Assembly: GCA_009602725.1 (NCBI GenBank)
Contig: WELB01000074.1
Span: 108,120 to 140,361 of the forward strand
Reading direction: 5' to 3'
Length of the DNA: 32,242 bases
Origin: Spirogloea muscicola
Taxonomy: Eukaryota; Streptophyta; Zygnematophyceae; Spirogloeales; Spirogloeaceae
Shown piece after piece: positions 2,272 to 31,980 of this stretch (position 1 is the first letter of the stretch; the number at the start of each line of letters is the position of its first letter). The position numbers and the translations under genes were made by a program. The notes under the pieces were generated by a model, which saw only the letters and a list, made by a program, of their open reading frames with translations, was not told the DNA's origin and searched no databases.

Positions 2272-2320
2272 CATATCTGGGCCACTACACCGGATCCCAT
2301 CAGAACTCTGAAGTTAAGCC
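2268..2320 (+). ncRNA. 5S rRNA-derived 5' fragment fused to a LINE tail (pseudogene)
   Basis: The stretch holds CACCGGATCCCATCAGAACT, two further bases, then GAAGTTAAGC, which is the highly conserved first half of eukaryotic 5S rRNA including the start of its internal control region (A box, AAGTTAAGC). The preceding ATCATATC also resembles the usual 5S 5' arm. Homology stops at the point where 5S would continue GTGCTTGGGC; from there the sequence follows the LINE C-terminal coding tail (CGTGCTCTCGCTGCGG, compare CGTGCTTTGGCGGCGG at 18210). The C box is missing, so this cannot be a functional 5S gene. It is a 5S/LINE chimera, either a SINE3-like element or a single template switch. Confidence 0.75.
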
Positions 2321-2545
2321 GTGCTCTCGCTGCGGTCTCCGGCTTTCATCAGGGGGATAGTTTTCCGGCAGCTAGTCTGTCGGATTTGGGGCTCCTCACT
2401 CGTAACTACTGAGTGGTCCATCCTCCCCCGTTCTGCCGTTCTGCCCCCCCTCTTCAGGCCCCTTAGTCGCTGCTTAGCTCGTAGTCTGGCCCCTTCGAAC
2501 CTTGTCAATTCTTTTCGGGCTGGCTTCTCACAGCCCTTGCCCCCG
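2320..2545 (+). mobile_element. 5'-truncated LINE tail, ends LTRNY-stop, with 3'UTR hairpin
   Basis: From the 5S junction the + strand encodes ALAAVSGFHQGD, then FPAASLSDLGLLTRNY and a TGA at 2410-2412. This matches the conserved C-terminal peptide of the window's LINE family (ALAAASGFRxGD, FPxASxSDLxxLTRGY-stop). The 3'UTR follows and carries CTTGTCAATTCTTTTCGGGC and the stem-loop GGGCTG-GCTTCTCA-CAGCCC at about 2514-2533. All upstream coding sequence is missing, as expected from incomplete reverse transcription. Confidence 0.75.
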
Positions 2546-2573
2546 TTGGGAGAGCCACTTCTCTCTAATGGAA

Positions 2574-2645
2574 GGCAGTGGCCGGGAAAGGCCAGACCAA
2601 ACAGAATGTACGAAGGGCCGGAAAGGCGCAGAGAGCACTGCTCTC
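2574..2645 (-). mobile_element. LINE 3'UTR hairpin fragment, opposite orientation
   Basis: GGCCGGGAAAGGCCAGACC followed by AAACAGAATGTACGAAG is the hairpin module in reverse orientation. Together with the + copy at 2488-2536 it makes a close inverted pair just upstream of the F-box gene. Confidence 0.5.
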
Positions 2646-2818
2646 CGGGTGGCCGAGTGAACACTGGTACAGACGAGTGAGCACAGGACGACCGCCGCTG
2701 GCACCGCCTCAGCTGCCGCCGCCCGCGCGCGGGCGCCTCTAGTCACCGCGCCGCCAGGGCCTGCGCCTCGCGCTCAGCCGCGCCGCCTCCCGAGCTCCGC
2801 GCCCGATGGCGACGGCGG

Positions 2819-2822
<4 letters not shown>

Positions 2823-2860
<38 letters not shown>

Positions 2861-2861
2861 N
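2823..2861. other. Poly(A) run ending in an undetermined base (likely assembly artefact)
   Basis: Thirty-eight consecutive A residues followed by the window's only N, embedded in (CGG)-rich sequence 48 bases before the F-box ATG. The abrupt switch from GCGGCAGC to A(38)N and straight back to CGCCGGCGG suggests a gap-fill or read-end artefact rather than natural DNA. An upstream ATG at 2806 (MATAA...) may be the true start, with the frame across the gap unknown. Confidence 0.7.
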
Positions 2862-2908
2862 CGCCGGCGGCGGCGGGCGCCGGCGCCGACGGCTCGCGCT
2901 GCGCAGCC

Positions 2909-5830
2909 ATGCTGCCGGACGCGCTCATGCTGGAGGTCTTCCGGCGGCTGTGCTACGCCGACCGCGCGCGCCTGGGCATGGCCACCCAAGAGGTGCCTTC
3001 CCTCCCCTCTATCCTCCAACCCCTAACCCTAGACCTTAAGCCCTAAGCCTTAACCCCTATATTGTAAACCCTAACCCGGTTCCTGACCAGCACCTCATTC
3101 GGAACGCTGGTCATTTGCATCGCTCCGTCTCGTAATCGTCTCCTCTCATGCTGATGCCGCCCATGGCGCGTCGCAGATGCGGCGGCTGGCGGCGGACCCG
3201 CGGCTGTGGCAGGAGCTGGAGCTCTTCGTGGTGCCGTCCGACGTTCATGGCCGGCACAAGCACCACACCCATTACAGCAGCCAGGCACTTGTCGACGTCA
3301 AGGTTCGGGCGGCCACCTTACTACCTGCCGGCTGGCGCCAGACCTCCCTCCTCCTTCCTGCTCAGCTTTCCCCTCAGCTCATCTGACTTCCTGTTGCTGA
3401 CTCGGGGTCTCAGAGCGCCCTGTCTGCCTAGCCTGTGGCTCCGCTTATATAGTCATGAACACTCTCTGTATGCACCTGGCTGGCTTTTACAACCGCTCTT
3501 TGGATATCAGCAGCTGCATCATTTCCTGCTCAACCCCAACCCGTTCTACCTCGTCCCCTTTGGCCAGGCACTGGTTGCCTCGGGCGCAGCACTGGTGCTG
3601 GCGCCAGGCCCCGATGGACTCGACAGTCGCTGCGGCACAGCCAAGCTGGAGCTCCTTCTGGCACGCGCACACGGGCAGCTGCGCAGCGTTGATGTCCGCG
3701 ACTTGCGCCTGCGGACCTCTGACCCGCCGGGGGGCCTGCCGCGCCTGCCGCTGCGCGCCGTCGCCCTCCTGGCGGCCTCCCCCGGCCTCCTGCACCTTGC
3801 GCTCGCCCAGCTGGTGCTGGCAGACTCCGACATGGAGACGCTGGCCTCCGCGTGCCCGGGGCTTGTCACTCTCGAACTCCGCGACTGCCCCGCCAGCGCC
3901 GCCATGCTGCACACGGTCGCCAGGCTGCATTGCCTGGAGACGCTCGCCCTGCAGGACCTCGAGGGCTGGTCAGCGCCCCAGCCCTGTCCCTGCGCTCTCT
4001 CTTCCTCTCTCCTCGCCCCCCTTATAGCTACCCCTGCCTCCAGTCACTCAGCCTTATTCTCCGCCCCTTTCTCCTTTCTCTCAACCCATTGACAACCTAT
4101 GACTCCCCTGTCATAGGTTGTCCCTAAACCTAATCCCCTACACCCTAAACCCTAAAGCTACCCTAAGTCCCAACCCTAAATCCAATTAAGCTCAAACCTC
4201 AACCCTACGTTATCACTGCCCGACCCAATTTCTTCTTTCCTCCCTCTGCTTGCTCCTCCCACAACCACCCTGCAATTTACCCCCACACATGCTTGGTTGC
4301 CTCTCTCTGCCTGCGTCCATCTCCTTTTGGCCCCCCACGCTCTTCCGACCCCAAAAGATGCTCCACAGTTGTCGCTTGCTTGCCGGCTGCTGTATGCTTC
4401 CCAACCGGTGCTTTGCTGGCTGCACCTGCCTAAAACCGGCAACTGTGCAGGCGCAGCAACGGCGGCGGTGACGCGGTGCCTGGGGCAGACAACGTGGCCT
4501 CGCTCGCGCGTGCGCTTCCGCGTCTGCGCTCCTTCTCGCTGGGCCAGTCGCCATGGGACTCGTCAATAGCCGGCGCGCTCCTGGCCGCCGCGCGGGGGCC
4601 GCTGGAGCATCTTGCGCTTGGTCGCCGCGAGGAGTTTGCCACCTCAATGTTCCTGCAGCCGGATGGCAGCCACTTTGCACCCGACCTCGCCCGTCACCAC
4701 AAGCTTCGCTCGTGCGTGGGGCCTCAGTCGATGCAACTTTCCTCCTCGCACCTCCTTCGCTCTCCTCCCTCCTCGCTCCTCCCTCGGCACCTCCGCTCCC
4801 ATGTAACAGTGGAGTTGCTGGATTCTGTGTCAGATATTGTCTTGAGTTAGTCGTATTGAGCTTGGTTGAGTTGGTCATTCTACCCTACACTCCATACCAC
4901 GGACCGTTACCCTCTACCCAACCGCTGAGGGCATGGAAAGCCACTGTGACCCTCCTTAACCCTTGGGTTCCAGATGCAAGCCCTCCCCTTCATGGTTGCC
5001 TCTCCAGCCCCTCCTTCATTCTAACACACCCATTTGTTGCCCATTGTGTCCAGGCTCCTGCTTGGCGGATATGCACTGTCCAATGAAGCCTTTGACGCCG
5101 TCGCCAGGGGCTGCCCCGAGCTGGAGACCTTGGAGCTCTGGCACGGCAGCATCGACGATGGCACGCTGGGCATTGTTGCCGTGGCGCTTCCATTGCTCAA
5201 GGTCTCAGCTGCTGCATGTGCCTGTGCTGCACCAAGCGGACAACACTGTCTAAACTTATTATTGATCGTCTGCGGCTGAGCTCCTGAAGTATAGCAGCAC
5301 CCACGTTCTGATCAGCTGGGCTGGCCACGCAGGTGCTGCGCGTGCTGTGCAATTACGGCGTGTCCGATAAGGGCCTGGCATCACTGGGGCAACGCTTAAC
5401 TGTCCTTGAGGAGCTCGAGGTGTGGCACTGTCCTTCCAAATGGCCACTTCCGCATGGCCACCATACCCAACAATGTCAGACGTCGTCACACCTCGCCAGC
5501 GAGTCCAGGCAGGGGCCCTTGTCTGCCTGCCACTGGTAATGTTGCCATAGTCCCAAGCGTTGCTGAAGCAAGCATGTGCCTAATACTGAAATTCCCGTCG
5601 GAATGGTTTGCGGCTTTCAGTTGGGATTTGTGTGCGAGAGTGACCCGTACGGGTACCCCCATGCCATTGATGACCTCCTTATCTCTGATGCCGGCCTTCT
5701 GCGGCTCTCTGGCTGCCGGGCGCTCAAGCGATTGTACGTTGGTGGCGAGCTCTGGGCACCAATGGACTTTTTCACGCACATCACTGCCGTCGGACTTGAC
5801 CGCCTCCGCACCATGCTGGGCACCTTGTAG
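2909..5830 (+). CDS. F-box/leucine-rich-repeat protein, seven exons
   Basis: Probable substrate-recognition subunit of an SCF ubiquitin ligase. Exons: 2909-2992, 3177-3302, 3511-3968, 4451-4711, 5054-5201, 5333-5419 and 5621-5830. All junctions are GT-AG with matching phases (0,0,2,2,0,0) and the sum is 457 codons plus TAG. Residues 2-45 form the F-box, split by intron 1: LPDALMLEVFRRL, DRARLGMA, then RRLAADPRLWQELEL. The remainder has degenerate leucine-rich repeats of the F-box-LRR/AMN1 type: TLASACPGLVTLELRDC, LHCLETLALQDLEGW, GCPELETLELWHGSID, LPLLKVLRVLCNYGVSDKG, LEELELGF, GCRALKRLYVGG. No transmembrane segment is seen. The start is uncertain because an in-frame Ala/Gly-rich extension runs back into the poly(A)-N artefact. 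Introns 1 and 3 hold telomere-like repeats and intron 2 holds a LINE tail that abuts exon 3. Confidence 0.82.
3003..3078. repeat. Degenerate telomere-like CCCTAA tract in F-box intron 1
   Basis: Contains CCCCTAACCCTAGACC, TTAAGCCCTAAGCCTTAACC and TAAACCCTAACCC, variants of the CCCTAA/CCCTAAA telomere repeat. It lies wholly in intron 1, far from a chromosome end as judged by the genes on both sides. Confidence 0.7.
3345..3525 (+). mobile_element. LINE 3'UTR tail in F-box intron 2, reaching the exon 3 acceptor
   Basis: The sequence CTCAGCTCATCTGACTTCCT, GTTGCTGACTCGGGGTC, CTGCCTAGCCTGTGGCTCCG, TCATGAACAC, TGTATGCACCTGGCTGGC and CGCTCTTTGGATATCAGCAG parallels 27700-27840 in the full-length LINE almost module for module. 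The encoded remnant SSSDFLLLTRG is the family's C-terminal peptide. Homology continues to about AGCAGCTGCAT (compare AGCAGCCGCAT at 27828), so the acceptor at 3508-3510 lies inside the LINE-derived segment. Confidence 0.75.
4122..4212. repeat. Degenerate telomere-like CCCTAAA tract in F-box intron 3
   Basis: Contains CCCTAAACCTAATCCCC, CACCCTAAACCCTAAAGC, ACCCTAAGTCCC and CAACCCTAAATCC. The seven-base CCCTAAA form is the plant/green-algal telomere type. This is the second such tract in the same gene. Confidence 0.75.
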
Positions 5831-6214: not shown

Positions 6215-6217
6215 CAT

Positions 6218-6270: not shown

Positions 6271-6324
6271 TAGGAAGGAGTAAGCAACAGGTCTTTTTGG
6301 CCACTTTCATTCCATGTTGTGCAC

Positions 6325-6560
6325 TTGCAGGCAGGCCGCGCTTTAGCTGCTACTTCTGGGTCTCGTTTGGGTGCCTGATTTCCAGCTGCAACTTACTCCG
6401 ACTTGTGGCTGCTGACTCGGGGTTACTAATCTCCCATTCGCTGTAGCCTCTTGCATAGCTGTGTGCTTTGGCGCCTTCGGCCCTTTGAGCCTTGTTCATT
6501 CATTTCTGGGCTGGCTCTCCTGAATCACAGTGTGCTTCAGAGCTTTCTCTGGCTCCTTCG
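6325..6560 (+). mobile_element. 5'-truncated LINE tail, ends LTRGY-stop
   Basis: Frame reads HLQAGRALAATSGSRLGA, one in-frame TGA, then FPAATYSDLWLLTRGY and TAA (about 6427-6429). The 3'UTR carries GAGCCTTGTTCATTCATTTC and the hairpin start TGGGCTGGCTCTCC. A second similar box, TCCTTCGAACTCCGTC, follows at about 6556. It is one of the clearest copies of the shared C-terminal peptide. Confidence 0.75.
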
Positions 6561-7758: not shown

Positions 7759-10700
7759 ATGGCCGGCTGGCCGATGGCGCCGCTTATGGCTGCGACGGCC
7801 CTCCTGGCGGTCCTGCTGGCGCAGGCCGCCGCAGCGCCCCAGCAGGCGGGCGACGTCTTCGTCGCGCCCTGCCCCTTCCAGCCCGACCCGCCTCCAGGAG
7901 GTGCCGATCCGCCTGCTGCTGGAGGCCCACAGAGTCCCCTCTCCGCACTGCAGTTTGTGTTTGTGTTTGTGTTTGCGTTTGTGTTTGCGTTTGTGTTTGT
8001 GTTTGAGTTTGCGTTTGTATTTGCGTTTGTGTTTGCGTTTGTGTTTGTGTTTGTGGTTGTTTTTGTGTTTGTGTTTGTGTTTGTGTTTGTGTTTGTGTTT
8101 GCGTTTGTGTTTGTGTTGTGTTTGTGTTTCTCAAGTCTGTGTTTGTGTCGACTGCTGCTGTGGACTGTCGATTAGACTGCATGCTTCTGAAGTGCTGGCT
8201 CAGCTCAAGCTCAAATCCACCGTCATTGGGTATGGGACTCAAGAAATCCATCTAAGGATGGACATGCCACATTGTGCCATGAGCCCGTCCTCACTGCCTC
8301 CGATCATTGTCCTCCCTGCTGCTCGCTCGGCTGCAGGCTTCCTGAGGTGGAGCAGCGCCGCAACGTGGGGCGGCGACGGCGTGCCGGGCGTGGGCCCCCG
8401 TGCTGGAGGCAACGCCACCATCCCGTGCGGCAAGGCCGTCCTTCTCGACGTCCCCGCTGTCAGCCTCACGCTGCTCCTCATCCAGGGCTTCCTCAAGTGC
8501 GCTCCAATTCCCGCCCTATGTCTCACCTCCCTCATGCTGCAACGCTTACTTGGCTCCCCTCTCGTCTTGGCTGCCCTCTGGCCGCACTCTTACGTGCCAC
8601 CTCCTCGCTCCCCCTCCACCGCAGGTTCTTGGACAGCCCCTCGCTGCCCGTCATCGCTCTCAACGCGAGCTACATCATCGTCCAGGGCCAGCTGACCATT
8701 GGCACGCCGACGGCGCACTTCAAGAGCAGTGCACGCATCACGCTTGTGCCCAACCCTGCCGGCCCGATCCAGTACCTCTTCTCCGTCGCCGCGCCCGCAG
8801 ATGCCGCCAACCCTCGGAAGCTTGGCTACCAGGTCCTTGCTGTGGTATGCACAGCAGCCATCCGATTCCCACTTTCAAGTGCCAAATCCTGTATGCTGCC
8901 TCTCTGCTTGTACCCATTGCTCAATCATTTTACGTCATGCTTCTGGTATTTACAAGCACTTCTGAGCCGCAGGTGGGCGGCCGAGTTCACTTGCATGGCA
9001 TGCCCGCGGGCGCCACCACGGCGACCTTCACGCGCCTGGCAGCCTCAGCGGCGCCCGGTGACAAACAGGTTGTGGTCCGGGCAAATGCAGCCGGCTGGCC
9101 AGTGGGCGGCCAGATAGTCGTGGCATCGACCGACTACGACTACAAGCAGGCCGAGGTCGCCGTCATCACGGCAGGCAGGAACTCGTGGTCCCAAACTTCT
9201 CTGTCCTCCATCGTGCTCTCGCCCTCCATCATGTAAGGAGCTGACATAACATCCCTGCTTTCCTGCCATTGCCAGTTCAGAGCAACGCCAGTGGTGGCAG
9301 TGTGCTGGCCCTCGATCGGCCGCTCGCCTACATGCACTGGGGCGGTGCACTGCTGCCTGACGGTGCCGGTGGCAATCTGGACCAGGGCGCCGAGGTTGCG
9401 CTACTGACGCGAAACATCCTCATCACTGCGCCGCCCTCCAACAATCTCGTGGGTAAGCGAGTGCACGGCCCCACTACCTCACCCTTTCACATCCCCGCAA
9501 TCGCACTGCAACAAGTGTAAGCTTTCCCCTTGGCTAAGACATGAAGCATAACTCACGTAATCGGGAACGCTTTCGCCCCAGCCTGACACGCCTGCCCAAG
9601 AACTGGCCCCCATATCACAGGTGGCCATTTCATGGTCTTCTTCACGACCGTGGCGCAGTACATTGACGGTGTGGAGTTCACAAACATGGGGCAGCAGGGC
9701 ACGCTGGGCCGCTACCCAATCCACGTTCATATGTGCGGCAACCAGGCTGGCGGCACCACCGTCACTCGCAATAGCGTCCACCAAAGCTACCAGGTGTGCA
9801 GTATAGGATGAGGAAAGGGGCAATGTCATACAAGATAGACGGAGTAGGGATGGCAGAGAGAGGAGGGTCATGTCCCATGTGGCAGCACGATGTTCTCACC
9901 CGAAACCTCTCCCACCTGCGCAGCGGTGCGTGGTGATCCATGGGACGGCAAATGTGACTGTGTCAGACAACGTGGCGTATGACACGGCGGGGCACTGCTA
10001 CATCACCGAGGAGGGTGGTGAGACGAGAAATGCCTTTCTGCGCAACCTGGGCCTGGCAACGCGCGCCGTTGCAACGCTGATCCCCAATGAGTCGCCGCCC
10101 GGCCCGTCGACTGAGACCGATGACCAGCCGGCCACGTTCTGGATGAGCAACCCCAACAACGTTCTCGTGGGGAACTTCGCTGGTGGCGGTGACAATACGG
10201 GGTGCGACATCTGTTCTCCTCCCTCCTCTTCTGCCCTCACGCTCTCAGGGGGCACAGCTGGCTAACATTGCCACAACAATTGGTCTGGCGGGCGTGCAGC
10301 TTCTGGTTTGAGCTGCGGGAGGCAGTGCGCGGCATCTCGGCTGACCTCCCCGGGAATGATGCAGTCGTCCCCTTTAATGTCCCACTGGGCACCTTCACTG
10401 ACAATGTTGCACACTCGTATGGGACTGCCGGCTTTCGTACATACCCTCACGGCATGCGGCCACGTTTGCCCTCTGGGGTGAGCAAGCAGTGTCTTGTGCC
10501 AGTCTACAGTCCATTCCATCGCAGATGTCAGTAGCAGCCATGTTTTGCATGTCATATGATTTGGAAAGCCTGCTCCTCTCCTGAGGGCTGTGTCCAGTGC
10601 CCATAATCATGAGAACATTAAACGTCTGTTTCTATTCCAGGTTCCGGCATCCGCTGTTTTCGCACGCCTACAAGCATTCAAGAATGGGTGGTTAGGGTAC

Positions 10701-13700
10701 GCAGCAAGCCAGCTGCAAGCTCATAATAGCAAAGACCATTTATTGACATTTCTTTGTGAAGATGGCCATGAGCCACGCAAGAAAGCAGCAGTGTCTTAAG
10801 TGTGACAGTGATACACGTTCGCCTTCTCACATGCTTATTTCCGTGCAATTGTCATTACAGGCTATTTATTCACAACAGCGACAGTATCACGGCGAATGAC
10901 CTCACTTTCTCTGATAACCCTTGGGGCATCTACCTCAATCAGGACGAGGGCATCACAGTTGAGAGGTCCAGATTTGTTGGCCTGACCGCCAACTATGGCA
11001 ATCCGGCACAGTGCTTTCGCACCGACGAATGGGGCCCCTGCGTGTGAGCCCTTGGCCCTACATTCTATGCTCCATTCACATGATGAAATCTTTGACTGAA
11101 GAAGAGCTGCAGCAAGGCAAGAAATATATAAGGATTTCCTCTGGTTTTCTTCTCGCTGCCACAGGCCGGTTACAGGTTGCACATTGCCGGTGTCGCGCGG
11201 CACGCCGGCGAGGTCGTCTATCGGGAACCACAAGATGCCAAGCTTCGGCATCGTGTGGGACCAGGGCAACCGCAGTGAATCTGGTGGCTATCCCAACCTC
11301 GTCAAAGGGTCAACGTTTGCCAATTACGACCCGACCTGCCGTCCGGCTGCCGCGCTCGGCCTTGCAGGCGCAGCTGACTTCTGGAATGCGGCTCAAAGGT
11401 GAGCGTGTGCCTTTTCTTGGACAATTTCGTGCTGGAAACAGCCAAAGCTGTAATTCACAATTGAATCATCTTCCTATATTCTATGTCTGTCTGACTTGCT
11501 GTGGCGTTATACTATGGAATAAAACGTTGTAGCATCCAAAAATTGTTAGCTGCTAACTACTCAATGCACGACAATGCAGGGTACAGAGCTTGAGCTTCGT
11601 AAATGCGACCCCAGTGTACATGGTTCCACGTATTGCAGCATGGAGTCCAGGAATGCCTGTTGTGGATGGTGGCGAAATCTCACTGCAGTACGCGCTCAGG
11701 GACCTGGACGGCTGCCTGATCGGCGCGCCCGGCTATGTCGTTGCGCGCACGCCTGCCATGCTGCCGCCGGCGGCTAAGGGGTGCACGCTGCAGGCTCTAT
11801 GGAACGCATACAGCTGCCCAAAGCTCTGTTACCGCACAGTCGCCATCCAGTACAACGAGCCAGGCTTTAGCGCCACGACATTGGGCGCTCGCAAGCATGG
11901 TGACTTCAGCTGGGTGGAGATAACCAGGTTGGCAAACCACCGCAAGGCCTGGACTGTGGTGGCTGGCCATTGTGATGCTTGATTCATTTCTCAGCTGATA
12001 AATGGGCGCGGTGTACTTACACAATAGGAGAAGCTTAGTCAGTGGACAGTTTGTTGACGTGCAGCACACCCCTGTTTGAACCTGGCAATTGACTAAGCTT
12101 GACCGTCATTGCCTGTTCAGGATGTTTGCCTGTGCTCTGACAAGCTCTCCATGCATGCACACACTTGCCTAAGAGGTTTGCTGTAATCTTGACAGAGTGG
12201 AGGATGGCATCATCACGGTGCTTGATGGTAACCTCAATGCTGAGTACGTTGCTTATGGAGGGGTGACAAGCACATCTCGGTTCTTCTTTGCCAACCTGCT
12301 AAGCGGGTACACCTACCTCGTCACATTCAAATCGAGTGGCAAGTTCTACCCTGCAGCAGCCGCTGTGAACCTCAAGGATGGAGCAGGCTGCGGTGGCACT
12401 GTCAAGATACGCGTGGCGCCACCGGACGCTTTTCACCAGTGGACTTTCTCCTCGACAGACCAGATCGTATACAAGTAAGCGGACTTTATTTCAGAGTTTT
12501 AGCCTGAGATTCATATTGGTCTGCTGCTACTTGTCCAGCATGGACCTGCGCTAACAGATTGCTGACTCCTGCAGGCCTTGCACTGGGCTAGTCTCAAACA
12601 CGGCCGCCAAGCTCACCACCGTGAGCTATTTCTGCAAGGCTGGGCAGCCAGCGCAGACTGAGATATCTCTTGGACCTTCCACTGTGGACCTTGTGCAACT
12701 AAGCCTTGTCGCAGGCAGCAGCAGTTGCCCACTCTCAAGGTCTAAATCTGCACCTTGCCTTGAGCTGCATGACATTGCAGCACCGAATTGCCAGAGACAG
12801 GCTCTTGGCTAGACACACTATCTTTTACATTCATATGGTGGTCACCTGCCACATAGTAAAGTGGTTGGAATTCTGGAGACGACTATAGCTGTGACAATGC
12901 CGGACATGCACCTGGCAGAATGGATGTGCATGTCAAAGGGCGGGGCTGACGGATCACTGAGGCTCTCCCCATGACTTGTCCTATCTATGGCAGCTCTTGT
13001 GGCATACTCCCATCAGGATCAGCCGGCTGGGACTGGAGTGCAGGAACTGTACCTGCCAGCTTTGCACCGACGACGGCTACCAAAGTGGGTCAACATGCAC
13101 TCCAGGCAGGCTTTGGATCTGGGCAGGGCATCTTCGGTTACGGAAACAACTTCTTGGTCACCACCATCCCCAAAACAACGGCCTCCGTCATCACTTACTA
13201 CTTTCAGCAAGCCTTCAATTTGACCAGCGTCGCGTGCTACAGCGGCCTGGATTTTGACATCATTGTGGACGATGGAATTGTAGTATACCTCAATGGTGAC
13301 GAGGTGCTGCGGAGCAACATGCCACTGGGAAAAATACGGCCGCTCACTCAGGTGCCTTGGGGATCTTGGCAGATCAACTCTGCTGTGCAGTCAGTGCAAT
13401 GATCCTGAGCATCAATCAGTACCACTCACGTACATGTCTCCTCTCTGTTTCAGGCTTTGTCTCACCTCCAGCCCATCCGATATCCTGATGTCAACTACAC
13501 CTCATTCCACATCGACCTTGTGGGATCATCAAGCTCGTATGCGTTAAGGGAGGGCATGAATCTTATCACTGTGGAAGTCCATGCTGCTTTTAATTACGCA
13601 TGGGAGATGGCCTTTGACATGCGGATCTCTGCTGTCAAGCGGTGAGGACCCCCACTGTGTGAGCCTGTTGCAGCCCTGCAACAGGCCCACACAACTAGGT

Positions 13701-18046: not shown

Positions 18047-18116
18047 CTTTTGAATAACAGTGAGGGAGAGTTGGAAGAGCGGCGGAGTGCCTCATTCCCT
18101 GCTTCGAATTACTGTG

Positions 18117-18626: not shown

Positions 18627-18631
18627 CAGGG

Positions 18632-19144: not shown

Positions 19145-19376
19145 CAGGGGGGGCAGGCTGGGCCACACCAGCATTCCGCGAGCATAAGTTGCTCTTCATA
19201 GAATGCGGCTTTCGCTTAGTTTGCAGCGCTCGCAAGCTCTGGCTCTTCATCAGCGTGCAGGGCGCGCTCTAAATCAGGCCATTGACTTCCGTGGCGGCGC
19301 TCCGGCTCCCCAAGTTAGCTTGTCGGATTTGCATGTGCTCACCCGTGGGTACTGATGTCACCCTGTTACCTTAGGC
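19145..19376 (+). mobile_element. LINE tail, inner part of left foldback arm
   Basis: Encodes GGAPAPQVSLSDLHVLTRGY and TGA at about 19352-19354, the best preserved copy of this C-terminal peptide, then TGTCACCCTGTTACCTTAGG. The mirror copy is 19412-19635 on the - strand, where the end reads SLSNLYVLTPEY and the stop is lost. Confidence 0.75.
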
Positions 19377-23680: not shown

Positions 23681-23741
23681 GTGACTCAAGTGGCCACTAT
23701 GCACTCAGTAATCCCTGTTGAGCAGCCGCAGGTCCGGGTAT

Positions 23742-23788
23742 TATATACGTCTGGCAGATAAGTATGTGCTCACTCGTGGGTACTAGAA
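23742..23788 (+). mobile_element. LINE tail remnant ADKYVLTRGY-stop
   Basis: GCAGATAAGTATGTGCTCAC, TCGTGGGTACTAG encodes ADKYVLTRGY-stop in LINE sense. It ends about 65 bases upstream of the full-length LINE's ATG, so it may be an older copy into which the element inserted, or part of that element's own 5' region. Confidence 0.6.
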
Positions 23789-23851
23789 CCCTCCTTCAGC
23801 CTTTGGCCAACTCCCCGGGGCGCTCGAGCGCCTGAGCGCCGCCGGGCGCGC

Positions 23852-26800
23852 ATGCCGCCGCCTGCGAAGGCACAGCGCGCACCTGCGCGGCGCGCCCCTC
23901 GGAGCTCGCCGCGCAGAGTGCCGTCCGCAGCGCGGCCCCCAGCTGGCGGGGTCCCTCATGCCACGCCGTGCGCCGCGGCGGCCACGGCGGTGGCGAGGGA
24001 GGATACGGCACCTAGGCAGCTTGCACAGCCTCGTGCGGGGAACATGGGTCCGGCTGCCCAGCTCACAAGCTGGCTCGGCCGGCTGCGATCAAACCCTCGG
24101 CTCACTTGTGCCGGGGAGGCAACCGCACTGGCGGCCAGCGCGAGAGCAGTGCACCGGAGCTCCAGGAGTTGCTGCGCTACGCGCTCATCCCAGGCCCCAT
24201 TAGGCTCAGGGATGGACGAGACGGCTGTCCCGACCACGGCCCCAACACCATCTGAGATTGCCGTGGAGGAGGGCAACATGGAGAGGGGCACAGGACCCCC
24301 TCCCCCAGTATCCTCTCCCACTGCTTCTCATGCTGCTCTACTTACGGGCTTCGAGCCCCACCCACAACCAACGCCGTGCACCTCTCCCGCGTCTGCAGGG
24401 CAGACGGCTTCCGCAAACCCCCCTGCATCTTGGAGGGGAGGTCGCCGCAGCGGAGGAGCCAGGCGGCGCTTGGAAGTGGTTGTCGCCATGGGTTCGGCGA
24501 GTGGTGGCAGTGGCGCTGATGATGCTGACGGGCCCGTGGCTGGCGATGCCGCTGTATCAGCTGCACCTGGAGAAGGGGAGCGGGGCCAAGAGGACCTCCG
24601 GCCCCCTGCGGAGGCAACCTCTTGCCCGCCTATGGAGCTCCGCTGCCGGCTCTGCCGGCGGCGCTGTGCCTCCAAGGTGGGTCTGAGCTCGCACGAGCGG
24701 GCCTGCGTGCGTTCTGCTAACAGAGAGGCGCAGCAGGCAGAGGCATCCGCCACCGCTCGGGCTCGCAGAGTCCCTTCAAGAGGGGCGATGCCAACACCAC
24801 CACCAGGGCCTACGGCAGAACACTGGCGGTGGGCGGAGAGCGTGGACGTCTCCGAGATCCTGCGGACGACCAACGCGCAGCTCCTACGACACATCCCGTA
24901 TTGGGCCCGGCCCCACATACGGCGAGCCCTTCGGCCCCTCCTGACACGTCTGGCTCGTGACAGCGAGGATGAGGCTGCATGGGCTGTGTTTGTGTTGTTT
25001 CCGCGACTCTTGCTTGGTCGCCTGCCGCAGGGGAAGGCAGGTCGCAAGGAGCTGCTGCTGCGCCTTCACCTGTTTGAAGGTGGGGAGTGGCAGCTGCTAC
25101 TTGCAAAGCACCAAGCGGCTGCGCAACTCGCGCAAGCCAACTTTCGGCCCACCACGTCGGAATCCGATATTAAGGAGGCGGGCAAGCGACGTGCCATCCG
25201 ATTTGGACGAGCCGGCGACCTTGCCAGGGCTGCCCAAGCCTTGGAGCCCTCCACACCAGCACCGCATGATGCGGCAACCTTGGCCGCACTCGAGCAGCTC
25301 CATCCTTCGGCCCCGCGAAGATTAGATACATGGATGGAGAGCTTCACGCCTGCTCAACCGGTGGACCTGGACCCGGCTGCCTTCCGTCGGGCGATTGTGA
25401 GTAGCCGCAAGGCAGTCGCCGGGGGTCCATCGGGCATGCTCTTTGAGCACTTGCGGGAGCTGTATGGGGAGGACGACTCGGAGGAGGATTTCAATCTGCT
25501 GCTTAGGGTTGCACAACATGTTGCGCGTGGACACCTCACCCAACGAGTAGGCGCAGTCCTCTGCACAAGCAATCTCATTGCTTTGCAGAAGGACAGCGGG
25601 GGAGTGCGTCCTATCTCGATGGGGGAGGTTCTGTCGCGCCTCGTGGGGCGCACCCTAATCATGCAGATTCAGGACGATGCCCAGGCGCACTTCCATCCCC
25701 ACCAGTTTGGGGCTGGGATGCGTGCTGGCGCTGAGACCCTGGTGCACGGGGTACGAGCGGCACTGGATGTCAACCCCCATTGGCTGGCCTTGAGCGTGGA
25801 CGTACAGAATGCCTTCAACACTGTGGATCGGCAGGTTATTGCCGAGGAGCTAAGGCAGTACTTTCCCACCCTCCTCCCTCACTTCCGATGCATGTATGGC
25901 TCGCCATCTGCATTGTTGTGGGGGGCAGGGAGTTCTTTGGCTGTTTTGCAGTCAAAGACGGGGACACGGCAAGGTGATCCAATGGGAGGTTTTCTCTTCG
26001 CTCTGGCGCATCACCGTGCTTTGCGCAACACGGCGAGCGCTCACCCTGGCGTTCTCCTCCCGAGTTACGCGGATGATACCACGCTCCTCGGCCCCCCAGT
26101 GGAGGTGCTGCAAGCTTTCGGCACGCTTCAGCACCAGCTCCAGCTTATTGGGCTTGGGGTCAATCCGGCTAAGTGCTCCGCCTGGTCCCCTATTGGCATC
26201 CCTCTTTCCCTCTTCTCCTCGTTGCCTACATCTTGTCAGACTCCAGAGGGCGGCTTGAGGATTTTGGGAGTGCCACTAGGGGACCCGTCTTTCTCGGAGG
26301 GTGCTGTCCTTGCGCGTCTCCAAGGATACATGCAGGTCCTGCCAGAGCTCCCACGCCTTGGGGACTCTCAGTTGGCAGTGGCCATTTTGACCAGGAGTGT
26401 GGCACAGCGGCCGTGTTACCTCCTGCGTACGGTCCCACCGTCGGTCAGCTTGGATGCTATCTATGCATCCATTGATGTCAAGCTTCAGCAATGCCTTGCT
26501 GATCTGATTGCTCACCCACTCCTAGAGCAGTCTCCAGCAGCACTGGTGCAATGTACGCTGCCCATACGTCACGGTGGGCTTGGTTGTCGCCCCTTGGTCC
26601 GCTTATGCAGACCAGCGTACCTTGGCTGCTGGGCTCAGGTGGCCTCGTCCATATCTGGACGATTCCTCCTTGAGCAACAACGTGTGTTGGCGCCTCACAT
26701 CAGGAACGTGGTTCAGGGGAGTCTGCCTTTCCAAGTGACTCTCAAAGCATGCCAACAGGACCTCTTTGCCGCATACCCGCCTCTGGTGAATGAGCCTGTT

Positions 26801-26956
26801 AGTTCCTGGGCTGACGTTTCTGATGTTAAGGCTCAATCGCGGTTTTCCCGTGCTGCAGACGAGCAACCACTGGAGCATCTCCGGAGTCTCCTCCAAGGGG
26901 ATGCTCGAGGACCCCTGCCAAGCACAGGGATGGTAAGCCAAGACGGCGGCGCATAG
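23852..26956 (+). CDS. LINE ORF: CCHC zinc finger and reverse transcriptase
   Basis: 1034-codon frame from ATG 23852. Residues 1-255 are low complexity (A, P, S, R). A CX2CX12HX3C finger uses C265, C268, H281 and C285, like the N-terminal DNA-binding fingers of R2/NeSL-type elements. AWAVFVLFPRLLLGR lies near 375. The reverse transcriptase spans about 510-800: AVAGGPSG, GVRPISMGEVLSRLVGR, motif A SVDVQNAFNTVD (D650), GTRQGDPMGG (704-713) and catalytic YADD (739-742). It copies element RNA at a nicked chromosomal target. The frame stops at 26956, but the endonuclease frame, open from 26830, overlaps by 127 bases one base back. No apurinic-type endonuclease precedes the RT, as expected for the restriction-like endonuclease lineage. 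The intact catalytic residues suggest a recent copy. Confidence 0.93.
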   Translation: MPPPAKAQRAPARRAPRSSPRRVPSAARPPAGGVPHATPCAAAATAVAREDTAPRQLAQPRAGNMGPAAQLTSWLGRLRSNPRLTCAGEATALAASARAVHRSSRSCCATRSSQAPLGSGMDETAVPTTAPTPSEIAVEEGNMERGTGPPPPVSSPTASHAALLTGFEPHPQPTPCTSPASAGQTASANPPASWRGGRRSGGARRRLEVVVAMGSASGGSGADDADGPVAGDAAVSAAPGEGERGQEDLRPPAEATSCPPMELRCRLCRRRCASKVGLSSHERACVRSANREAQQAEASATARARRVPSRGAMPTPPPGPTAEHWRWAESVDVSEILRTTNAQLLRHIPYWARPHIRRALRPLLTRLARDSEDEAAWAVFVLFPRLLLGRLPQGKAGRKELLLRLHLFEGGEWQLLLAKHQAAAQLAQANFRPTTSESDIKEAGKRRAIRFGRAGDLARAAQALEPSTPAPHDAATLAALEQLHPSAPRRLDTWMESFTPAQPVDLDPAAFRRAIVSSRKAVAGGPSGMLFEHLRELYGEDDSEEDFNLLLRVAQHVARGHLTQRVGAVLCTSNLIALQKDSGGVRPISMGEVLSRLVGRTLIMQIQDDAQAHFHPHQFGAGMRAGAETLVHGVRAALDVNPHWLALSVDVQNAFNTVDRQVIAEELRQYFPTLLPHFRCMYGSPSALLWGAGSSLAVLQSKTGTRQGDPMGGFLFALAHHRALRNTASAHPGVLLPSYADDTTLLGPPVEVLQAFGTLQHQLQLIGLGVNPAKCSAWSPIGIPLSLFSSLPTSCQTPEGGLRILGVPLGDPSFSEGAVLARLQGYMQVLPELPRLGDSQLAVAILTRSVAQRPCYLLRTVPPSVSLDAIYASIDVKLQQCLADLIAHPLLEQSPAALVQCTLPIRHGGLGCRPLVRLCRPAYLGCWAQVASSISGRFLLEQQRVLAPHIRNVVQGSLPFQVTLKACQQDLFAAYPPLVNEPVSSWADVSDVKAQSRFSRAADEQPLEHLRSLLQGDARGPLPSTGMVSQDGGA

Positions 26957-27726
26957 CATCGCAAAACAAAGCATTTTCCATCCGCAAGCCCGCATGCAAA
27001 GGCAAAGCGCGGAGCCACTCAGACGCTCCCAGAGACGAAACAGATAGGAGCCGAGCGTGTGAATGTGGGCTTATTGAGCATGATGCAGTGCTCATGGGTG
27101 ACCACATGCTCAGGTGTGCCAAAGGCAGTGAGCGCACGGGCTCCCACAACCTCCTACGTGACGCCATGAATGGCATCGTCAAGGAGGCTGGATATCAAGT
27201 GGCGTTGGAGAGCACCGGGGTGATGCCCGTCCAGCTCCGCAACGGGGTCCCTCGGACGCGGCGTGTCGATCTGGTTGGCGTCCCCCTGGGAGGTGGCAAG
27301 CGGCTTCTCATGGACGTCGTCCTAACCGACAGCTTCCGGACGAAGGGCCCCGTAACTTCTGAGACCGGCTATGCCGTGAAGGTGGCCGAACAGAAGAAGT
27401 TGCACAAGTACAAGGACCACCCGGCGGGTGATACCTTTTACCCCCTGGCCATGGACATCCATGGGTGTTACGGGGTCCGGTGGTCCTCGTTACTTTCGCT
27501 GCTGGCATCTCAAGCTGACCAGCGGCGCCGGGAACAGGGTGCAGCCCTCCCCGGTGGCTCGGTGCCTTTGGGTCTTGTGTCCTGCTACCGCATGCGTTTG
27601 TCTATGTCGCTACAGCGTTCCCAAGCGCTTGCTTTGCATCGCCGCGCTGGTCGTGCCCTTGCAGCAGCCTCTGGCTTGCGCAGCGGGGTTGCTCTTACCT
27701 CAGCTCATCTGACTTCCTACTGCTGA
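26830..27726 (+). CDS. LINE restriction-like endonuclease domain and C-terminal region (-1 frame to the RT)
   Basis: Opens after a TAA at 26827 and runs to TGA 27724-27726. It has a basic stretch (PRRRRIASQNK), then a CX1CX12HX3C knuckle starting at 27058 (ACECG ... GDHMLRC). The PD-(D/E)XK-type core follows: RVDLVGVPLGGG, LLMDVVLTDS, AEQKKLHKYKDH, FYPLAMDIHGCYG. Such endonucleases nick the target and prime reverse transcription. The C-terminal part YRMRLSMSLQRSQALALHRR, AGRALAAASGLRSG is the peptide repeated across the window. The final residues leave the family consensus: SSSDFLLLTRG is readable one frame away at about 27700-27735. RT and endonuclease are normally one polyprotein in this lineage, so the one-base offset most likely reflects an indel or assembly error. 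Confidence 0.85.
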   Translation, partial: GSIAVFPCCRRATTGASPESPPRGCSRTPAKHRDGKPRRRRIASQNKAFSIRKPACKGKARSHSDAPRDETDRSRACECGLIEHDAVLMGDHMLRCAKGSERTGSHNLLRDAMNGIVKEAGYQVALESTGVMPVQLRNGVPRTRRVDLVGVPLGGGKRLLMDVVLTDSFRTKGPVTSETGYAVKVAEQKKLHKYKDHPAGDTFYPLAMDIHGCYGVRWSSLLSLLASQADQRRREQGAALPGGSVPLGLVSCYRMRLSMSLQRSQALALHRRAGRALAAASGLRSGVALTSAHLTSYC

Positions 27727-27975
27727 CACGGGGTCACTACGAGCGCCCTGGCTGCCTGGCCTGTGGCTCCGTCATGAACACCTGTATGCATCTGGCTGGC
27801 TTTCACAGCCGCTCTATTGATATTAGCAGCCGCATTAAAAAAAAATTCAGCTTGCCTTCGTACTTGACCACTCAGGCTTTTCATCACACACTTCATTCCC
27901 TTCAGTTGTATTTGTCGTTTTCTTACCTCAGCCCTTTTCAATTTCCCTTTGTTCTTACAGTTTGTACTGGTTTGC

Positions 27976-28022
27976 TTTGGCCTCCCTCTGATTCTCATGG
28001 GCACCGCCTGCCTCTCTCTTGT
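27976..28022 (+). repeat. LINE 3' terminal box
   Basis: TTTGGCCTCCCTCTG, ATTCTCATGGGC, CGCCTGCCTCTCTTG. Related boxes are at 17796-17840 (+), 19938-19985 (-), 31852-31905 (+) and 31926-31975 (+). Occurrence at the 3' limit of several otherwise different tails suggests it is the element's true 3' end and possibly the RT recognition site. Confidence 0.65.
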
Positions 28023-28093
28023 CACGAGCGGCGCCAGCAGCCGCTAGCTCTGCTTTTGAGTGAACCCGACCTAGGGTCGACACTGGCGACGCC

Positions 28094-28113
28094 GCCGCTG
28101 CTGCAGCAGCGGC
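28094..28113. repeat. Perfect 20-bp palindrome
   Basis: GCCGCTGCTGCAGCAGCGGC equals its own reverse complement. It sits just downstream of the LINE 3' end in a GC-rich patch. No binding protein can be named. Confidence 0.9.
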
Positions 28114-28149
28114 TAGCGGCGACGCGCGCTTGCTGCAGAGCCTGCCAAG

Positions 28150-28310
28150 AGGAATAAGCGTGTATTAAGAGATGGAGGGCCTGTGTGGCCAAGTACAAAG
28201 GCAAGCACATTGACAAATGTATGTCACCTGCTGCCAAGCTGACCCGCTCAGTTACCACGAGTCAGCACAAAAGGGGCCGAGAGGGCTCGGTCGTTAACAA
28301 CAGGCGAACC
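28150..28310 (-). mobile_element. LINE tail on - strand, ends LTRGN-stop
   Basis: The - strand reads ALSAPFVLTRGN-stop, then TGAGCGGGTCAGC, and ATGTGCTTGCCTTTGTACTT, GGCCACACAGGCCC. This matches the 3'UTR of the 18632-19144 insertion and, more loosely, 27848-27880 of the full-length element. Confidence 0.7.
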
Positions 28311-30317
28311 AGCAATCAGGGAGCCTTACCTTGAGGACTCCGCGGGCAGACCTGTAGATCATCATGCCCCCCAGGCAAGTTTGTGTCTTGTGTGACGACG
28401 CACAGTCTGTAAGCATAACCCCAGATTGTTGCTTAAGGTGTGGCGTGTTCCTTCTTTCCGCGCCATTTGCCTGTGACATTGCATATGAGGCGTCGTGTCA
28501 TGACCTCGGTGCATTCCTGTGGATGTTGACTCTTTCGAACTCTGTCCTTTCCGTAGTATGCGACTCAGCTGGCTTGTGCCAGATCGTTTGTCACTTATTC
28601 TGTTATTGTTCGGGTCATAGCCACTATCACTATCATCCCCCTCTCAAGATAGATGTTTAAATTAGACTCTATCCGAGGTCGTTTGTTGATGTATTCCTGA
28701 CTCTTCTATGTTGCGCTGTCAAATTGTGAGTTGCTACTTGTGTCATTGGAGCACTTCGTTCAAATGGCCCCAGAGGTTGGGAAGAAGAATTGCTTGATGC
28801 ACCTGACATCTTTCAGCCATGCTCGTGGTGGCAGGCATGGCTCACAACAGAGAGGGGGCACAACCAATCCAGGCCGCCTGGGAGCTTATTCTTCAGACAG
28901 TGATGACTGTGAGGGACAAAGTCGTCCACCCTTTGGTGCATGAATAGGAGGTAAGTATCTGCTAGGTTCTCAGGTGTTTTAAGAGCCCCGTCCGAGCAGA
29001 GAGGATGATTCAAAGATGTCCAGCACGGCTCTTGAGGACTCTTTGTCAGCCGCCTTCGTACAACTGGAAGTCTGGGCTGAAATGCCAGAATATTAGCTTC
29101 CAATCACGGAAGCAGGTCTTGATACTGTAGCGATGGGGACATAATGCCTTACATGGCAAGGCCCGAGATCTACCCATGCACCTGACTCCTGGTGGCGTAT
29201 CTTCTGCTTCTTCCTTCTGAAAGCAGTGAAGCTTTTGAACCATCCCCAAGTTGGCGACCGGTCCGTTGGCCACGCTGCCTTCTCATTATGCATAACGATT
29301 GGGGAGGTTCGGACTCCAGCGCCAATTGCCGAGTATCTTGACAGATGCATATCAAGAAACTCCTATGGAGTCAGGTACTGGGCGCCACTTGAGAGCTACA
29401 CCAATGGTCAAGCTGACAGAGGTGATAGCTACCATCTTGTGAATTTTACCTCTCTTTGGGCTATGGTTCAAGATGAGTACAGTGGTAATCTACAAGATTT
29501 CCGTGCCTATGAGGTTGCTGATATTGACCCTGCCAAGAAAATTGGGTAGGAGGTCTTGTGTTGGACTTCCAACCCAAGCTATGCAAGTGGCTCCTGCCGA
29601 TGCACGACCCATACTGGCCGACTTGAAGTGAAGCCATGCTCTGTTCGAGAAGGTAGATCGTGCCCTCCACTGTGTGGAGGAGTGTGATCGTGATCTGCAA
29701 TTTTTGAATTTGAACTTCTCCATGCTGGCTATCAGACCTCCTAAGGCAGTAAAGGCACCAGTGGCAGTGCTCAATTCAGCATCCCGCGACCACAGTAAAG
29801 TTGTGAGTAGGAGTCCATTTAAGATGAGTGAGGTCCTGCTAGATTCCCTTTTTGGAAATCATGAAAGCATGGACGCAACAAGTGTCGCAGGTGCTTGTGG
29901 ATTTAGCCCTCAAAGGCGAAGCTCCTGAAATTTTCCAAGCTCGTTCCGCACTATTCGTAGCGTTGCTTCGGAATAGAGAGCATTGTCTGACTAAGATGAT
30001 ACTGGCTATGTTATGACTGTGCAAGCATTTACAGATGCTAGTCGCACTAGAGAGATGGTGAAATCTGGTCCGCCCACTTGCAAGCATATGTACTCAAAGG
30101 ACGCTTGACGGTTTGCATCATAAGTCCTGCAAGTCCCATTAACATATGCATGGCTTGTGAGACAAGGCGCTGGTCAACAATCATCTGGTTCAAGAAAATG
30201 CCCTCCAAGGAGAGCTTAAAGATTGAAGCGAGGAGAGGAGTGTACCTATGGAGCTCCTCCACAGTCGCCAATGACTGTGACTGGACACAGCAAGATGAGG
30301 TATAAGCTCCTCAGGAG
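28311..30317. other. 2-kb AT-richer region with unresolved open frames
   Basis: Medium-length open frames lie on both strands (+ 29226-29549, + 29674-29928, - 28813-29103, - 29093-29350, - 29490-29774, - 30047-30271), but none shows a motif I recognise and splice links between them are not evident. The + frame at 29226-29549 reads EYLDRCISRNSYGVRYWAP and DIDPAKKIG and is protein-like. This may be a decayed transposon of another class or exons of an unrecognised gene. A degenerate LINE box (CTCTTTCGAACTCTGTCC) lies at about 28528. Confidence 0.35.
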
Positions 30318-30375: not shown

Positions 30376-30544
30376 CATTGGCGAGTGGCACGTAAAAGCA
30401 TGCTACACAGGCCAGTGCGACACGCTCGCTTTCCTTCTTCTCCACAATTCTCATGCATATTCTTAAGGCAGGCCAGTCAAGCTCATGCCTAGTTCGCTTG
30501 CGGAGAGATGCGCGTCGGAGATCTGCGGCAGAGATCGAGGGCGA

Positions 30545-30740
30545 GTGACGCGGCGGCAGCGGGTGACCAGGGCTGCGTGGCCGATGGAGGGGATGAGGTG
30601 TGAAGCGTGTGCGGCTTGAACACTGAGCGGCCCATGCTGCTATGCGATCGTTGTAATGCGGGGTGGCACAGTGGCTGCCTGCAAAACCACCTCTTGCTGA
30701 GGTGCCGGCGGGGCAGTGGTTCTGCCCGCGCTGCGCATAG
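30545..30740 (+). pseudogene. PHD-finger fragment, broken by a stop and a frameshift
   Basis: Frames in succession read DAAAAGDQGCVADGGDEV-stop, then VCGLNTERPMLLCDRCNAGW then HSGCLQ, then one base off PPLAEVPAGQWFCPRC and TAG. Together they follow the PHD-finger pattern (C-C-C-C-H-C-C-C with LLCDxCNxGWH and WFCPxC). A base gain in CTGCAAAACC and loss of the first Cys pair disable it. PHD fingers bind histone tails and also occur in some retrotransposon polyproteins; the retroelement-rich context favours the latter, but a decayed host gene is possible. Confidence 0.65.
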
Positions 30741-31360
30741 CGCTGTCATAGTCAGGATGCTTAACCCTCAGAAGATGCAGCTGCCTCAGACCCAGGCAGC
30801 TGGGAGGAGGGGTGTGGTGACTCTTCTGCCACATTCTTTGCAGGTCTGCTCACCTGGTAGTGAGGCCATGCAGGACATGCTACTGCTAGCTAACAAGCAG
30901 AGTCCTGACCTGTAGGCGGAGCTTCAGGTGTGGCACTTGACGCGTAGTGGGCGCTAAACGGGCAGGCACAACAGGGGCAGTTGACCGTGAAGAAAAGCTA
31001 GCCCAGAGTAGACACTTGAGAAAGCACCGACTGCCCTCCTTCAAGGAAAAAGTGCCTCTCCAAAGGGGGCAAGGGCTGTGAACAGCCAAAGGCAGTGGCT
31101 GTGAGGAACTAGCCGGAGAAGAACACTGACAAGCATGTATTCTTGTGTGCATGTGTGTTAAAGGACAGTGTCTGTAGATATTGGGAAGTTTCATAGGAGG
31201 CAGAGTGAACGCCGACACAGCAGCTTGAGCATTGCGGCCATATGATAATATGACCACGAGCACGTGGGCTGGTGTCAGGGAGTTGGCAGTAGTTTAAACA
31301 TAGGTAGCTTACTAGCTGCGTGATGGCTCGTCAATTGGAGCGGCTATAGCTGCTGATCGA
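30741..31360. other. No supported gene; scattered diverged hairpin modules
   Basis: AAAGCTAGCCCAGAGTAGAC (about 30996-31015), GGCTGTGAACAGCC (about 31075) and GGCTGTGAGGAACTAGCCGG (about 31098) look like decayed reverse-oriented LINE hairpins. No protein frame is convincing. Confidence 0.45.
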
Positions 31361-31369
31361 TTGATTTGC

Positions 31370-31500
31370 GACTGCTGACAGATAATTGAGCGGCCATCTG
31401 TGGTGGTCAACTCACTGACAGGTTTACTTGGAAAGGCTCCTTTGGACCTTGTTCGTTTTTCTTCGGGCTGGTCTTCCGCAGCCATTGCTAGCATATGGAA
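31370..31500 (+). mobile_element. Decayed LINE tail, SIDLRLLTDN-stop, with hairpin
   Basis: TCGATTGATTTGCGACTGCT, GACAGATAATTGA reads SIDLRLLTDN-stop, a degraded form of SxSDLxLLTRGY-stop. After about 50 bases the 3'UTR signature follows: TTTGGACCTTGTTCGTTTTT, CTTCGGGCTGGTCTTCCGCA, GCC. Confidence 0.6.
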
Positions 31501-31674
31501 TAGCTTTCTTTGACAGGCCATTGCCACAAATTAGCTGCTTACTTTCATAGGTGAGAGGAAGAGCATTGACCCTGACATATAGCTCGGCTGGCTTTATCTC
31601 AAATATGCTGACATACTGGTACTTGGGTCCGAAGGCTGTGTAGAAGAATCAGCTCGTTCAAAGGCCACCTCTCT

Positions 31675-31735
31675 TTTGAAGTGGGCGAGGGCTGTGAAAA
31701 GCCAGCCCACAAAAGAAATGAACAAGGTCTGTATT
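31675..31735 (-). mobile_element. LINE 3'UTR hairpin fragment
   Basis: GGGCGAGGGCTGTGAAAAGC, CAGCCCACAAAAGAAATGAA, CAAGGTCTG is one of the best preserved reverse-oriented modules: stem GGGCTG and CAGCCC around TGAAAAGC. Confidence 0.75.
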
Positions 31736-31752
31736 AGTCGCGGTTTGGCGCC

Positions 31753-31980
31753 TCAGTCTAGCATGTCAGATATGCATGTGCTCACTCGGGGATATTAGTG
31801 TCCCCCTTAGCCAGCTCATTACCCAGTTGACAGAACATTTGTAAGGCTAGAATTGGCCTCCCTTTCGACTTCGTGCGCACCGCGCGCCTTCTCTCTTTGT
31901 TGCTTGAACTGTGTATTGGCTTGAATTGGCCTCCCTTTTCATTTCATGCGCCCCGCGCGCCTTTCTTCTTGTTGCGGGGA
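31753..31980 (+). mobile_element. LINE tail SSMSDMHVLTRGY-stop with duplicated 3' terminal box
   Basis: TCTAGCATGTCAGATATGCA, TGTGCTCACTCGGGGATATT, AG encodes SSMSDMHVLTRGY-stop. The 3'UTR holds two copies of the terminal box in tandem: 31852-31905 and 31926-31975 (ATTGGCCTCCCTTT ... GCGCGCCTT). Other copies carry one box. Confidence 0.75.

Follow-up and report, generated by a model that had tools for sequence, protein, structure and literature searches.

R2 in the strict sense is a long interspersed element (LINE) that inserts at one 28S rRNA site. The wider R2 group (R2, CRE, NeSL, R4, Hero and Utopia) is described in PMC5678591, PMC3636483, PMC10499050 and PMC7650587. In these accounts, a single open reading frame (ORF) encodes, in this order, a reverse transcriptase, a C/C/H/C cluster and, in the C-terminal region, a restriction-like endonuclease (RLE). 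Elements that resemble this group are found in a stretch of 32,242 nucleotides (nt) from the streptophyte Spirogloea muscicola (contig WELB01000074.1, positions 108,120 to 140,361). This whole stretch is called the window below. The subject here is the peptide with which the proteins of these elements end, SDLxxLTRGY-stop.

Two other systems are known from green algae. Zepp is an L1-type element, and its insertions are nested and consist mainly of 3’ ends, owing to frequent 5’ truncation (PMC8226300). Dualen and RandI, present in Chlamydomonas and its relatives (PMC8226300), are LINEs that encode an RLE, to which Dualen adds an apurinic/apyrimidinic (AP) endonuclease (PMC3636483).

The peptide, better written as SDLxxL[TSN]R-x-[YF]-stop, is very probably a genuine LINE C-terminus that is selected as protein behind a loose linker, with the copies of two of the families (A and B) being mostly very short. 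No description of an SDLxxLTRGY C-terminus was found in the literature searches made, and the matches listed for the word LTRGY look by title like chance strings such as LTR/Gypsy. The terminal peptide is thus apparently undescribed so far.

A six-frame script found 11 intact LTR[GN][YFN]-stop ends in the window, 7 on the forward and 4 on the reverse strand, and a codon pattern for these ends, run on both strands, likewise has 11 hits. When 200 windows were simulated by a first-order Markov model from the dinucleotide frequencies, the mean was 0.01 hits and the maximum 1. This confirms the shared C-terminal peptide reported in a preliminary description of the window, the coordinates of which proved accurate to within a few bases.

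The tail coordinates given here come from the same script and are 30-residue contexts that close at the stop codon. The letters A to G for types of 3’ untranslated region (3’UTR) are our own labels. On the forward strand, a 5’-truncated tail of type F1 ends in SLSDLGLLTRNY-stop (2320-2412) and a D-type tail with one internal stop upstream in YSDLWLLTRGY-stop (6337-6429). Two A-like tails end in SDLHVLTRGY-stop (17604-17696, with a stop codon immediately 5’ of SDL and an A/B-type 3’ block at 17796-17820) and in SLSDLHVLTRGY-stop (19263-19355). A second D-type tail, with YCDLLLLTRGY-stop, is found at 18348-18440; this copy consists only of about the last 46 nt and the 3’UTR. A mini-tail of about 35 nt, ending in DKYVLTRGY-stop (23694-23786), abuts the start of a reverse-transcriptase element, and a B-type tail ends in MSDMHVLTRGY-stop (31706-31798). 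The reverse strand has a G-type tail with FPDLHLLTRGY-stop (17958-18050), an E-type tail with VSDLYVLTRGF-stop (18729-18821), a D-type tail with YCDLLLLTRGY-stop (19843-19935) and an E-type mini-tail of about 22 nt with LTRGN-stop (28248-28340). In three of these copies the element itself contributes very little coding sequence: similarity to other copies sets in just 46 nt (copy at 18440), 35 nt (23786) and 22 nt (28248) ahead of the last base of the stop codon.

The preliminary description spoke of at least a dozen tails. This number exceeds the 11 intact ones, and is reached by including 3 decayed relatives. One is C-type, has lost its stop and reads SSDFLLLTRGL (3382-3411, forward strand, with a C-type 3’UTR block at 3473-3496); an A-like one reads LSNLYVLTPEY (19436-19465, reverse strand); the third (27708-27737, forward strand) closes the C-type element described below. 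Across the tails in the window, the DNA 3’ of the stop falls into several 3’UTR families (A to G), and the DNA 5’ of it spells the same residues with differing codons.

Opposite-strand tails lie with their 3’ ends face to face at 17604-18050, 18348-18821 and 27708-28340. No orientation rule for neighbouring tails emerged: sense and antisense neighbours behind 3’ ends number 3 and 3 among 40 copies, and 2 and 4 among 24 copies.

The peptide is abundant beyond the window. LTRGY-stop patterns have 7,781 matches in the 153 Mb genome, 1,821 for CTNACNCGNGGNTAYTAR and 5,960 for CTNACNMGNGGNTAYTGA. Reversed patterns gave 0 and 3 matches, and a scrambled peptide gave 1 (4 backwards). The MGN in the pattern also allows AGY (serine), and the 100 matches listed show arginine codons only; the counts leave out leucine TTR, and AGR before TAR.

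A sample chosen independently of the motif gives a better view of its variation. The upstream peptide LHxRAGRA has 1,323 matches (12 for the reversed control), of which the first 40 listed were used. A stop follows within 30-45 codons in 36 of these, and 32, counted from the listing, end in L[TSN]R-x-[YF]-stop: 10 LTRGY, 8 LSRGY, 7 LTRTY, 4 LTRNY, and one each of LTRHY, LNREY and LNRSF. The remaining 8 comprise five shifted or interrupted frames (L086, L095, L098, L110, L119), one LTPGY (L088), one LTRDH without a stop (L081) and one LTRTY that has lost its stop (L118). Because copies chosen in this way vary at T/S/N and at the glycine, LTRGY is not fixed, and the rule becomes L[TSN]R-x-[YF]-stop. 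The stable part of the terminus is the leucine, the arginine and the aromatic end; the glycine is variable.

Full-length relatives show where the peptide sits. Two single-frame copies in the genome, with ORFs of 1,379 codons (L163) and 1,488 codons (L162), both end in SSSDFLLLTRGY-stop, and other lineages end in SLSDLFVLTRGY (L161), SLSDLRLLTRTY (L166) and SLSDLRLLSRGY (L168). The L163 ORF contains a reverse transcriptase (Pfam RVT_1, 4.4e-17), for which the nearest solved structures are R2 proteins (2e-7 and 6.6e-6), followed by 8c8j (7.4e-5) and LINE-1 (1.4e-4). Upstream, phmmer pairs residues 331-374 with an N-terminal stretch of R2, but the 3.5 bits of this alignment are not significant alone, and zf-met is found at E 0.12, below the cut-off. 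Besides RVT_1 and this sub-threshold finger, Pfam has no matches in the 1,379 residues, and so no AP-endonuclease family. C/C/H/C residues with spacing CX1CX12HX3C are invariant in four lineages (A, C, F1, F2), as are RR-x-D155, D170 and K198 in an RLE-like region; the RLE is described as having two catalytic aspartates and a lysine (PMC10499050). The terminus is located 3’ of this region and of a conserved RMRLSxSLQRSxAxALHxRAGRAL segment, across a short, weakly constrained linker. Over the aligned C-terminal region, identity to the first lineage is 54, 50 and 51% for the other three. Judged by their sequences, the elements appear to be one large superfamily of single-ORF LINEs that are RLE-type and R2-group-like. 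The families are new, and the kind of element, an RLE-type LINE, is already known.

The window holds a C-type member of its own, on the forward strand. A frame at 23762-26956 carries a putative C2H2-like finger and a reverse transcriptase (RVT_1, 3.1e-17), whose best solved relative is R2 (9e-8). This frame starts within the mini-tail mentioned above, and the element proper starts after 23786. A shifted frame at 26830-27726 contains the C/C/H/C cluster and the RLE-like region (RRVDLV..D), up to RAGRALAAASGLRSGV. The C-terminus is in a further frame (27708-27737) and reads SSDFLLLTRGH with the stop lost, where L163 has SSSDFLLLTRGY; a 3’UTR block follows at 27789-27812. The element is 5’-truncated: among 20 other C-type 5’ regions, examined out of 40 matches listed, 16 reach further 5’. 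These 16 (L001-L006, L009-L012, L015-L020) start with CCCAACGGCTCCCTAGCTCGCCGCC, preceded in 9 of them by at least two GACC units (by eye), which resembles a short 5’ repeat or added bases.

Selection on the terminus was measured by a codon test on the four lineages, which compares the last 12 codons to the 15-codon linker and the RLE-like region. The last 12 codons differ at synonymous sites with a proportion (pS) of 0.884 and at nonsynonymous sites (pN) of 0.209, for a pN/pS of 0.237. The same ratio is 0.737 in the linker and 0.464 in the RLE-like region. A bootstrap over codons, which ignores relatedness, gives P 0.0008 versus the linker and 0.0126 versus the RLE-like region. In the RLE-like region, 94.7% of 12-codon windows have a lower pS than the tail, the codons of which therefore show no sign of constraint on RNA or DNA. 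With pS near saturation and pN/pS low, the constraint is therefore on the protein. Twelve tails taken from the 36 open ones behave similarly, with a pN/pS of 0.29 over the last 11 codons versus 0.58 over codons 9-25, and use CGT, AGG, CGG and AGA for the arginine.

The preliminary description suggested just such a comparison of synonymous and nonsynonymous change, and left a choice between constraint on protein and on RNA. The protein half of this holds up, at a pN/pS of 0.24, and the idea of an RNA signal in the codons does not, given the high pS. That several subfamilies share the terminus is also borne out: these are clearly different LINE tail subfamilies, and the terminus is constrained in them. 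The case named there as refuting it, a single recent subfamily, does not apply, given the 50-54% identity between lineages. Convergence on the same last five codons is another matter. The tails are homologous and share one frame, most of them lie at a fixed distance from the conserved RAGRAL motif, and the codons are not the same, as T/S/N and G vary and the arginine is encoded by CGT, CGG, AGG or AGA. As far as sequence comparison can tell, the shared terminus reflects descent.

Nucleotide conservation lies 3’ of the peptide codons, in a hairpin or a terminal block. A GGGCTGG...CAGCC hairpin is present 66-112 nt 3’ of the stop in 9 of 16 representative 3’UTRs (types D, F and G). In the loci fetched, which overlap and are not all independent, TTTGGGCTGG is followed by CAGCC within 17 nt in 97 of 114 cases. 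Types A and B have a common terminal block ending in CATGCGCMCCGCGCGCCTTCTC, with 2,244 exact matches and 0 backward. Because R2 protein binds its 3’UTR RNA (PMC10499050), we infer that hairpin and terminal block may be insertion signals. The RNA feature recognised for insertion would then be one of these, rather than the last codons.

A set chosen by the motif, 71 copies made up of 60 loci and the 11 in the window, has 32 copies with a start that lies 19-68 nt ahead of the last base of the stop codon. A second set was chosen by 3’ end, and consists of the first 40 listed of the 2,244 A/B terminal-block matches. Here the start falls in the 3’UTR in 22 copies, within the motif in 3 and upstream of it in 15, and similarity extends for 150 nt or less in 28 of the 40. 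Seven of the 15 upstream starts are self-matches (L129, L130, L133, L140, L145, L146, L155), the true starts of which are those of L022, L023, L024, L028, L029, L030 and L031; L131 is apparently mis-aligned, and by eye starts in the 3’UTR. An accumulation of 5’ ends at the motif is thus seen in the 71 motif-chosen copies but not in the 40 chosen by 3’ end, and was rejected. The peptide recurs so often because a typical A/B copy is a 3’UTR with or without the last codons.

The longest words common to both flanks of a copy have a mean length of 6.68 in 38 copies, versus 5.46 +/- 0.16 for shuffled pairings (maximum 5.89 of 200), and ten of the 38 share words of at least 8 nt. This is as short target-site duplications would give. 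Tails are also found within or adjoining other tails. The LINE leaves 5’-truncated copies with signs of short duplications.

Several observations weigh against the reading developed so far. The profile of the C-terminal region matches no solved structure at E<=1, and fold prediction for the RLE-like region gave no usable fold (pLDDT 34), so that domain order and motifs are the basis of the RLE label. The spacing of the C/C/H/C residues also departs from the knuckle published for RLE LINEs between reverse transcriptase and endonuclease, CX2-3CX7-8HX4C (PMC5678591). For these reasons the elements are named RLE-type, R2-group-like LINEs here, without a clade. The low pN of the tail is matched by 13.7% of the windows in the RLE-like region, and is thus low, not extreme. 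The codon test is small, at 11-12 codons and 4 lineages, and several of the 12 tail rows are close relatives. Seven of the 16 3’UTRs (A, B, C, E, W6429, L106, L117) lack the hairpin or have an altered form of it, and the scrambled-anchor control for it found one site only. Finally, other, partly shared sequence precedes four of the 22 copies that start in the 3’UTR (L123, L127, L135, L150), which may be a different, longer element.

These four copies have roughly the terminal 60 nt of an A/B tail with different sequence before it, and in the part shown L127 is nearly identical to L150. They could be short interspersed (SINE-like) elements with a borrowed LINE 3’ end.

Other explanations for the shared peptide have been weighed. 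The codons before the stop might belong to a signal in the RNA that the reverse transcriptase binds, the peptide being a by-product. The motif is indeed close to the 3’ end of the RNA, and copies found through it often start just upstream, as the 32 of 71 above do. But synonymous sites near saturation (pS 0.88, above 94.7% of the RLE-like-region windows) do not fit such a signal, and similarity is lowest at third codon positions (0.519, versus 0.692 and 0.736). Copies chosen by 3’ end also mostly start further 3’, with no excess at the motif. Constraint on the RNA is therefore very improbable. The peptide could also be common only through the youth of one subfamily, or through gene conversion that homogenised the copies. 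In subfamily A, similarity to the nearest copy reaches 97-100% for many copies, and the RLE-like regions of many C-type copies are 97-99% identical, so within each subfamily this is true. As a full explanation it is refuted, and we consider it highly improbable in that role: subfamilies differ in their 3’UTRs and in the codons for the same residues, and in protein, over the C-terminal region, identity of three lineages to the fourth is 50-54%.

A third idea is that the motif is an insertion target, with new elements inserting behind the stop codon of older copies. The C-type element in the window, which starts right after the LTRGY-stop at 23786, looks like an example of this. Yet none of the 20 other C-type 5’ regions has the motif directly upstream (L017 has it further off, within 150 nt), the 16 that extend further 5’ place the window copy among truncated ones, and the flanks of 3’ ends vary. 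As a rule, such targeting is refuted by these 20 copies, and it is extremely improbable as the explanation.

This leaves selection on the protein as the preferred reading, and the question of what the terminus does. SDLxxL[TSN]R-x-[YF]-stop very probably closes the single LINE protein, 3’ of the RLE-like region, and selection keeps it as protein while its DNA drifts. A conserved segment, a loose linker and a conserved free end with an aromatic residue are together the basis for suggesting that it could serve as a docking peptide. In its full form this proposal is tentative: the terminus may be a new functional module in RLE LINEs, a free-ended docking peptide required for retrotransposition, and kept while identity in the rest of the C-terminal region fell to about 50%. 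Should it dock, the element’s own endonuclease/linker region is the somewhat favoured partner, at slightly better than even chances; a host partner is a second choice and rather unlikely. Docking might close the endonuclease over its target, or recruit a host replication or repair factor.

For the docking step only, there is a rival that we also regard as possible without being probable. The last residues may have no separate function and simply form the final strand or helix packed into the folded C-terminal domain, conserved as the remainder of the protein is. In its favour, the pN of the tail is within the range of RLE-like-region windows, with 14% being as low. Against it, the linker before the tail is clearly less constrained (0.74 versus 0.24, bootstrap P 0.0008), and the protein stops exactly at the motif.

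With these results, a shared peptide becomes a testable statement: the last dozen residues are selected as protein, and nucleotide conservation lies further 3’. The second half of RLE LINE insertion has been called very poorly understood (PMC6895275), and a docking module, if true, would be a new handle on how these elements complete insertion. The genome is also a natural set of thousands of short insertions from several lineages, which makes it useful for studying the early stopping of target-primed reverse transcription.

The window contains other features, unrelated to the tails. A frame at 1215-1649 (forward strand) encodes a 6-O-methylguanine-DNA methyltransferase DNA-binding domain (PF01035, 2.5e-30), and one at 9807-10265 (forward strand) has a CEMIP beta-helix match (1.1e-30). 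A DGAVVYVNGNEVFRxNMP-like motif is found in three forward frames (12950-13402, 14688-15017 and 15620-16144), apparently repeated exons of one large protein. A GTTTGT array of about 30 copies spans 7953-8129. Elsewhere in the genome there are TTTAGGG telomere repeats, some of which, among the matches listed, open contigs C10, C22 and C29, and no array of four TTTTAGGG is present in the genome. Telomere repeats of this kind fit the green lineage, probably a green alga. At C27:905790-906317, opposite-strand TTTAGGG arrays lie face to face, like a fused telomere or an assembly join.

Relatives in viral contigs were absent from one scan, and no other eukaryotic genome was searched. Among described systems, Dualen and RandI, as RLE-encoding LINEs of Chlamydomonas and its relatives, resemble the elements here. 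Identity with them was rejected, as Dualen has an additional AP endonuclease and Pfam finds none in the L163 ORF. Zepp and Zepp-like elements differ in being of L1 type, whereas the endonuclease here looks RLE-like; this identity was likewise rejected on the lack of an AP-endonuclease family in the L163 ORF. What Zepp and the elements here have in common is that tails lie in or beside other tails, mostly as 3’ ends.

The R2 group is different in some respects. In the samples, the elements described here have no one target site: the flanks of 20 copies at the 5’ end differ, as do those of 40 copies at the 3’ end, which rejects R2 in the strict sense. The C/C/H/C spacing differs, and the conserved peptide behind the RLE-like region goes unmentioned in the excerpts of R2-group accounts. 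In other respects there is resemblance. Both have one ORF with a reverse transcriptase, then a C/C/H/C cluster and then an RLE-like C-terminal region. Both also have 5’-truncated copies, a putative C2H2-like finger lies upstream in the elements here as the zinc finger does in the R2 group, and R2 itself is the best solved relative.

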